Assembly: GCF_900149685.1 (NCBI RefSeq)
Contig: NZ_LT702999.1
Span: 62,001-126,000, forward strand
Source of the DNA: Erythrobacter sp. Alg231-14
GTDB taxonomy: Bacteria > Pseudomonadota > Alphaproteobacteria > Sphingomonadales > Sphingomonadaceae
Direction of reading: 5' to 3'
Length of the DNA: 64,000 bases
Of this stretch, positions 22,150 to 22,360 are shown one piece after another. The position numbers were made by a program, and so were the translations under genes. Within the stretch, counting starts at the first letter, position 1. Every line of letters starts with the position of its first letter. The notes below the pieces were generated by a model that worked only from the letters and a program-made list of their open reading frames with translations, was not told the origin of the DNA and did no database searches.

Positions 22150-22181
22150 AATTCTTACCCAAACCGTATTGATTGCCAAAG

Positions 22182-22190
22182 TTATCCACA
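22182..22190 (+). promoter_or_regulatory. DnaA box
   Basis: TTATCCACA, identical to the strong E. coli DnaA 9-mer, 33-41 bases upstream of the ccrM ATG at 22149. A perfect match inside this small region, next to GAnTC pairs, is unlikely to be incidental. Confidence 0.6.
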
Positions 22191-22196
22191 GGGCAT

Positions 22197-22360
22197 GAGT
22201 CCTCGCGGACTCCACGTCAAGCACGCAGATTCTGGATTGTTATGGTTAACGATTGGTAAGCAGGCGGGCCGGGGTTGAGAACAAAGAGTGACCGGCACAA
22301 GATATAGAGTCCGTAGGAATCGGGCGGACTCCAGATGGGGTGGTGTTGCGTTCAGGACTC
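22197..22360. promoter_or_regulatory. ccrM upstream GAnTC cluster
   Basis: Seven GAnTC sites in 164 bp: 22197, 22208, 22228, 22307, 22317, 22327 and 22356 (first base of each). Two pairs are arranged as inverted repeats: GAGTCC-TCGC-GGACTC at 22197-22212, and GAGTCCG ... CGGACTC at 22307-22313/22325-22331. Three sites (22307, 22317, 22327) are exactly 10 bp apart. In Caulobacter the ccrM leader also holds methylation sites that turn the gene off once fully methylated. Confidence 0.75.
22242..22249 (-). promoter_or_regulatory. CtrA-like half site upstream of ccrM
   Basis: On the minus strand the sequence is TTAACCAT, the exact extended CtrA half-site. The partner TTAA seven bases upstream is degenerate (CTTA). 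It lies upstream of the proximal GAnTC pair relative to ccrM, the same order as in Caulobacter. Confidence 0.45.

Follow-up and report, generated by a model that had tools for sequence, protein, structure and literature searches.

The region upstream of ccrM in an Erythrobacter-like chromosome carries an ordered array of GAnTC sites that has been conserved with the gene across Sphingomonadaceae. On balance, we favor reading it as a methylation-sensing promoter of the Caulobacter kind, extended by an oriented GAGTC array and by a lineage-specific DnaA input. The firmest parts of this reading are that the region acts as the ccrM switch and that GAGTC is probably recognized by some factor for its sequence, beyond its role as a methylation target. 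The gene lies in a 64-kb stretch of DNA that was analyzed as a whole (the window), taken from a genome of 3.14 Mb in two contigs. It occupies 21007..22149 on the minus strand, starts with an ATG at 22149 or 22140, and encodes a GAnTC adenine methyltransferase. The product scores above the cut-offs of the Pfam N6_N4_Mtase and RAMA models and reaches 604 bits with the NCBIfam CcrM model, under that model's 830-bit cut-off; the nearest Erythrobacter-like loci are 90-94% identical.

Seven GAnTC sites precede ccrM, starting at 22197, 22208, 22228, 22307, 22317, 22327 and 22356 (span 22197-22360), and form the densest GAnTC group of the window. The preliminary description of this cluster assumed a background of one GAnTC in 256 bases, which exceeds the actual background of this DNA about threefold: the window contains 79 sites, against 290 ± 16 in shuffled sequence. 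Because the true background lies below 1/256, the cluster is more striking than had been stated. With the remainder of the window as background, at least seven sites in 164 bp have a Poisson probability of about 1.3e-9, before a few-hundred-fold correction for the choice of interval. Both inverted repeats that had been pointed out, GAGTCC-TCGC-GGACTC (22197-22212) and GAGTCCG...CGGACTC (22307-22331), are present, and the DnaA box and CtrA-like half site discussed below stand where they had been placed. A group of four GAnTC sites in 115 bp at 6511-6625 was considered as a second cluster and dropped; it is inside a coding region, at the 3' end of a reading frame that we call racemase-like from the appearance of its protein.

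We compared 110 ccrM loci, the window included, made up of the best 80 of 589 relatives and the best 30 from the window genome and its genus. Start codons were picked mechanically for all loci and the upstream sequences oriented accordingly; the loci are related, so that the counts given here are not independent (L001 and L084, for example, have similar upstream regions). GAnTC occurs 5.79 times per 250 bp upstream of ccrM and 0.36 times in the remainder of the loci (109 of 110 loci; one with a short upstream region was omitted), and in 105 of these 109 the 250 bp upstream of ccrM exceed every other 250-bp interval outside the gene. The preliminary description had proposed a ccrM control region, to be given up if close relatives lacked its sites; the relatives keep them, and the pairing of the sites is not accidental.

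The array borders, and slightly overlaps, a calcium/sodium antiporter gene (22359..23282, minus strand; TIGR00367 above cut-off), which is oriented like ccrM and is itself preceded by a gene for ribonuclease HII (RnhB). The antiporter gene ends at 22359, and its TGA stop codon (22361-22359) shares bases with the outermost GAnTC site. We considered the antiporter as owner of the control module and rejected this assignment, as the gene adjoining the module varies and the module persists: among the 110 loci the neighbor is RnhB in 50, the antiporter in 22, and another gene or not determined in 38, some of which have little upstream sequence. By this comparison of neighborhoods, the antiporter is outside the ccrM switch.

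The distal part of the array is a near-dyad GAGTC element of about 85 bp (22277..22363, minus strand), delimited by a sequence model (R1) and an alignment (A1). Read toward ccrM, its layout is GAGTC-29-GAGTC-20-GACTC, formed by sites g1 (GAGTC, 22356..22360), g2 (GAGTC, 22327..22331) and g3 (GACTC, 22307..22311), all on the minus strand. These are intact in 104, 87 and 95 loci, respectively, of the 110 with a match (out of 111, the 110 loci plus L141), and all three together in 73. In every intact copy the n base is the same: G in 104/104 at g1, G in 87/87 at g2 and C in 95/95 at g3. GAnTC methylation leaves the n base free, and at the window's other GAnTC sites n is A or T in 57 of 72, unlike the invariant distal G or C. 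A further site, g4, is intact in 44 of the 110 loci and missing from the window genome. The distance between g1 and g2 is 29 bp in 60 of 74 matched loci; of 77 loci matched for g2 and g3, 65 have a distance of 20 bp and 12 one of 19 bp. We do not claim an arrangement of all sites on one helix face: spacings of 20 and 11 bp are compatible with it, 29 bp is not. Three GAnTC sites exactly 10 bp apart had been noted here; this holds at the window locus, and the outer pair at 20 bp is conserved, but the inner site (22317..22321, minus strand) is an extra, not generally conserved, as a GAnTC occurs in the dyad spacer of only 20 of 110 loci, the window included, and at varying offsets.

Could a mere abundance of sites account for this element? 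Many GAnTC near ccrM might act as a methylation buffer that delays or sharpens remethylation with no dedicated reader, and in line with this, clusters at ccrM extend beyond the family. A CcrM match at E <= 1e-60 was found in 83 of 114 class genomes, each of a different genus, and we fetched the best-scoring 30 of the 83, of which 28 lie outside Sphingomonadaceae. Upstream of ccrM, the mean number of GAnTC per 250 bp is 5.53 in 30 loci of the same order and 3.93 in these 28 class-sample loci, exceeding every other 250-bp interval outside ccrM in 30/30 and 23/28, respectively. The arrays of the other families have spacings of their own, for example 13-15 or 27-12-7 (L111-L169), and one locus has no GAnTC. 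A buffer, however, would give no reason for a fixed n base or for the constant orientation and spacing of the distal sites, and we consider it an unlikely explanation of them. By this comparison, a GAnTC array at ccrM is general in the sample, and the oriented GAGTC dyad is a feature of Sphingomonadaceae.

Upon alignment, positions outside the GAnTC sites also proved to be conserved. A1 holds 65 of 83 non-redundant rows; 18 weaker rows, many of which carry a distal DnaA box, were removed by hand (L031, L037, L039, L045, L047, L048, L051, L052, L055, L060, L061, L062, L067, L070, L072, L078, L079 and L141) and do enter the 110-row counts above. The approximate consensus of the 65 chosen rows is GAGTCCT-n4-GCCACACC...CATnTnGAGTCC-n13-GGACTCAACATCTTGTG..GGACTC.TTTCGTTC, in which G..ACACC, AAnATcTtGTG and GTTC are the conserved non-GAnTC positions. 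These look like promoter or binding elements, and a -10 is resembled by TATCTT (in L081) and by ATCTTG (in relatives), which would suit a separate unit that owns the GAGTC sites, that is, a promoter driving a small or antisense RNA or a long alternative ccrM transcript. Against such a unit, no -35 is conserved, most columns of the g2-g3 spacer being close to random (0.0-0.3 bits), and the element has no Rfam match near the gathering score. We therefore regard a separate promoter as improbable and retain the distal element as part of the ccrM switch.

The element appears to occur once per genome. In the window genome, R1, a sequence-only model, finds a single place, ccrM (E 2.8e-18), together with a dyad-partner match on the opposite strand. 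Of 25 genus genomes, 23 have a match at ccrM, in most cases accompanied by a weaker one on the opposite strand, as the dyad would predict; the two genomes without a match are G010 (86% complete, no CcrM found) and G015 (82% complete, weak CcrM match only). In G023, R1 matches strongly at two places, the start of the ccrM contig and the end of another contig, adjoining RnhB; the two most likely represent one region split by assembly. The first 180 bases at the RnhB contig end (L209) hold the ccrM distal module beside RnhB and an inverted copy that resembles an assembly artefact. The search for further module sites, run with strict filters that may lose weak matches, gave none that is convincing beyond ccrM, only weak ones with E values of 0.0178 (G001), 0.0918 (G023) and 0.099 (G072); 16 genomes of the order's other families gave one match, with E 0.099. 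We hence dropped the idea of a regulon of the distal module, as R1 found ccrM only, apart from these weak matches. A Citromicrobium locus (L025) has no distal match and retains both the proximal pair and the DnaA box described next.

Closer to the gene, a CTTGAC (22216..22221, minus strand), the putative -35, recurs without variation in 109 of 111 upstream regions; L039 and L108 lack it. Two GAnTC sites follow it on the same strand. Site 1 (GAGTC toward ccrM, 22208..22212) is present in 90 of the 109 anchored loci, with n = G in 43, C in 42 and A in 5, and site 2 (GACTC toward ccrM, 22197..22201) in 91 of 109, with n = C in 79; both are found in 77. Unlike at the distal sites, the n base is not invariant here. 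The first site stands at +8 or +9 from TTGAC in 75 of 109 loci and the second at exactly +19 in 88 of 109. With TTGAC as the -35, site 1 would lie within the promoter spacer and site 2 at the upstream edge of the -10. This -10 is weak at best, and a consensus promoter scan of the region did not list the CTTGAC promoter, giving one weak match elsewhere (22179-22151); for these reasons, the core promoter is one that we infer. A placement of all parts within one leader is not supported by this putative -35, which puts the proximal GAnTC pair inside the core promoter and the DnaA box on the predicted start. One more GAnTC, at 22228..22232 (minus strand), is lineage-specific and retained in close relatives only.

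Upstream of the CTTGAC lies the CtrA-like half site TTAACCAT (22242..22249, minus strand). Of 108 loci, 59 have a TTAACC in the 60 bp that precede TTGAC, and the full TTAA-N7-TTAA occurs in none of the 110 ccrM upstream regions. The CtrA-like site is thus conserved only in part among the relatives, which makes CtrA a likely, not a universal, input to ccrM.

The perfect DnaA box TTATCCACA (22182..22190, plus strand; TGTGGATAA toward ccrM) falls on the predicted transcription start, at +28 to +32 from TTGAC. The suggestion that it is an addition to the ccrM region has held up, and the addition is conserved: of the 54 loci with a CcrM identity of 79% or more, which were not picked for the box and which we used to gauge conservation, 52 have one at the start-site position; a second set of 59 rows (at least 7/9 matching letters) was selected on the box and hence gives inflated values. 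Perfect boxes are rare. TTATCCACA occurs four times in the window genome, against 22 occurrences of a reversed-pattern control, and 94 against 228 times in 19 genus genomes (G000-G018); the origin probably uses imperfect boxes. The four places are ccrM, the interval between an ftsA-like gene and ftsZ, the interior of a relA/spoT-like gene, and the position directly before ftsB (ftsZ and ftsB were identified by Pfam, ftsA and relA named from the appearance of the protein). In eight further genus genomes with 30 perfect boxes overall, the box is found at ccrM in 8/8 and at ftsZ in 8/8, and 14 lie elsewhere. Across the nine genomes, the ccrM and ftsZ boxes are present in 9/9 and make up 18 of 34 perfect boxes; one genome (G009) has perfect boxes at these two places alone. 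In all nine, the start of the ftsZ box lies about 21 bp upstream of a TATAA-like element (L173, which is C1:180961 of the window genome, L176, L180, L186, L189, L191, L199, L201 and L205). We discarded ftsB as a conserved DnaA target, as its box in the window genome has no counterpart among the 30 boxes of the other eight genomes. At this ftsB box (C1:2495297, L175; one of nine genomes), TGTGGATAA directly follows a GATTC, about 20 bases before the start codon.

Outside the family the two boxes are largely missing. No perfect box was found at ftsZ in 29 other-family genomes of the order, nor in L218, a same-family member of that set, and none at ccrM in 30 loci of the order's other families; the class sample has one at ccrM in 2 of 28 loci (L166 and L169). 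Six loci of other families (L223, L224, L227, L231, L234 and L237) carry dense groups of five to seven GAnTC in 330 bp upstream of ftsZ, with recurring spacings. Within Sphingomonadaceae, 68 of 108 ccrM loci (L006 and L061, with short upstream sequence, were left out) have a perfect box, in three arrangements: at the start-site position in 57, reversed nearby in two (Croceicoccus), and in the distal region in nine (Sphingomonas). The 40 loci that lack it include 10/10 Novosphingobium and 7/7 Sphingopyxis of the set. In several Sphingomonas loci the box sits between g2 and g3 or on g2 itself, and these loci have lost g2; L061 retains both. Because the arrangements are patchy across families and genera, the ccrM box has probably been gained, moved or lost more than once, and its state changes 13 times on a quick CcrM tree that is itself weakly supported (26 of 103 inner branches starred). 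L108 had a separate box state in this tree count and was reassigned by hand in the arrangement totals.

We think it likely that DnaA binds and regulates ccrM. A role in titration or replication, outside transcription, would suit the rarity of perfect boxes against the reversed pattern in the genus, and a single perfect box is able to bind DnaA. Such a role would, however, leave aside that two boxes are common to 9/9 genomes at fixed places upstream of ccrM and ftsZ, and we give this alternative little weight. As to the sign of a transcriptional input, repression of ccrM in the window lineage is, to us, an even call. The sign may differ between lineages, because the distal Sphingomonas box cannot work as a start-site block; at ftsZ, the box's place upstream of the TATAA-like element fits activation over repression. 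A box on the predicted ccrM start would most simply act as a block, whereas the reported activation of Caulobacter ftsZ by DnaA (PMC3193534) favors activation at other places.

The weakest alternative is a structured 5' leader RNA in which the GAGTC/GACTC inverted repeats, nesting GAGTCC/GGACTC and CCACA/TGTGG arms, would form stems and methylation would be incidental: we rejected it as highly improbable, since what is conserved in the 65 rows is letters and not pairing (the n bases of g2 and g3 are G-C in 63, C/C in one and a G/T wobble in one, with none compensated; columns 35/65 fail to pair in 37 of the rows, as do columns 37/63 in most), with no covariation and no Rfam match near the gathering score.

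Together, these features suggest how the ccrM switch could work. The distal GAGTC sites, with their fixed order, orientation and spacing, would report the methylation state of the locus, full or, behind the fork, hemimethylated. A sequence-specific reader of the distal element, most likely GcrA with sigma70, would sense this state, and the CtrA-like site would activate ccrM. The core promoter, CTTGAC with two GAnTC in its spacer, would be methylation-sensitive, and through this proposed sensitivity CcrM would shut off its own gene after remethylating the DNA. In the Erythrobacter clade, the box over the predicted start would place ccrM under DnaA control together with ftsZ, with DnaA most likely keeping ccrM off until replication is under way, judging from where the box lies. 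What the sequences show directly is the conserved architecture, the constant n base of the distal sites, the restriction of the element to ccrM, and the rare DnaA boxes placed jointly at ccrM and ftsZ; we infer the identity of the reader, the promoter positions, the dependence on methylation and whether each input is positive or negative.

For the reader, GcrA is the leading candidate because it reads methylated GAnTC (PMC3667746), is encoded in the window genome (above the Pfam GcrA cut-off; 133.5 bits with NCBIfam GcrA, below the 280 cut-off), and has a reported preference for K (G or T) at n within its Caulobacter activating motif, YGAKTCG, which was not found in Brevundimonas (PMC7987155). 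None of the seven sites upstream of ccrM in the window fits this Caulobacter motif on either strand, and among the 638 GAnTC of the 110 upstream regions it is matched by only 51. The earlier suggestion that a GcrA-like reader could bind the paired sites thus finds no support in this motif; the reader may be another protein, or the preference of GcrA may have drifted. A tentative, more far-reaching reading is that the distal module, present once per genome, is dedicated to sensing methylation, in which case the reader would tell GAGTC from GATTC and sense orientation, methylation of the inverted pair would set ccrM output, and the clade's conserved DnaA regulon would have shrunk to ccrM and ftsZ.

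Searching the open-license literature, with most subscription papers outside the search, we found no account, for Sphingomonadales, of the ccrM array or of the DnaA boxes at ccrM and ftsZ. As far as this search reaches, the timing of ccrM in Sphingomonadales is undescribed, and the present analysis offers a sequence-defined, testable switch across Sphingomonadaceae. The invariant n separates two entangled questions, whether GAnTC acts by methylation or by sequence, because n can be changed with no loss of methylation. If the distal module is indeed a sensor, a letter that the methyltransferase ignores would carry information. From the rare joint boxes at ccrM and ftsZ, a small number of DnaA targets can be predicted, and the boxes suggest a way in which a signal from replication may be redirected to methylation and division; if the two promoters do form a DnaA regulon, replication initiation would be directly linked to remethylation and division.

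Previous work gives this proposal its background. GANTC sites have been counted upstream of alphaproteobacterial cell-cycle genes (Brilli et al., PMC2877005) and at ctrA (PMC8116508), and Caulobacter ccrM has been named as most probably regulated by methylation (PMC3973325). In Caulobacter, CtrA activates ccrM from hemimethylated DNA only (PMC2217572). The ccrM region of the window resembles the Caulobacter crescentus ccrM promoter in combining ccrM with upstream GAnTC sites and a CtrA-like site; it differs in having an oriented 85-bp GAGTC dyad, a GAnTC pair in the putative core promoter and a perfect DnaA box, none of which the Caulobacter layout is known to have. In Caulobacter, one timing class of promoters is characterized by GAnTC between -10 and -35 (PMC4287350), and the GcrA footprint on methylated Caulobacter ctrA P1 covers -35 to -10 (PMC3667746). 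The ccrM region of the window is like such GcrA-sigma70 promoters in having GAnTC in the putative spacer downstream of a -35-like TTGAC and GcrA encoded in the same genome; it differs in having two sites, not one, with flanks outside YGAKTCG. The ftsZ box near a -10-like element is in line with the DnaA-activated promoters of Caulobacter, gcrA, ftsZ, mipZ and hdaA (PMC3193534). These four do not include ccrM, and the window's ccrM box, unlike them, overlaps the predicted start. Finally, the link from DnaA to ccrM was predicted in 2010 for some alphaproteobacteria from DnaA motifs at ccrM, mainly where CtrA sites are missing (Brilli et al., PMC2877005). We likewise find DnaA motifs at ccrM; unlike in that prediction, many Sphingomonadaceae loci combine a CtrA-like half site with a DnaA box, and the box has a fixed position.
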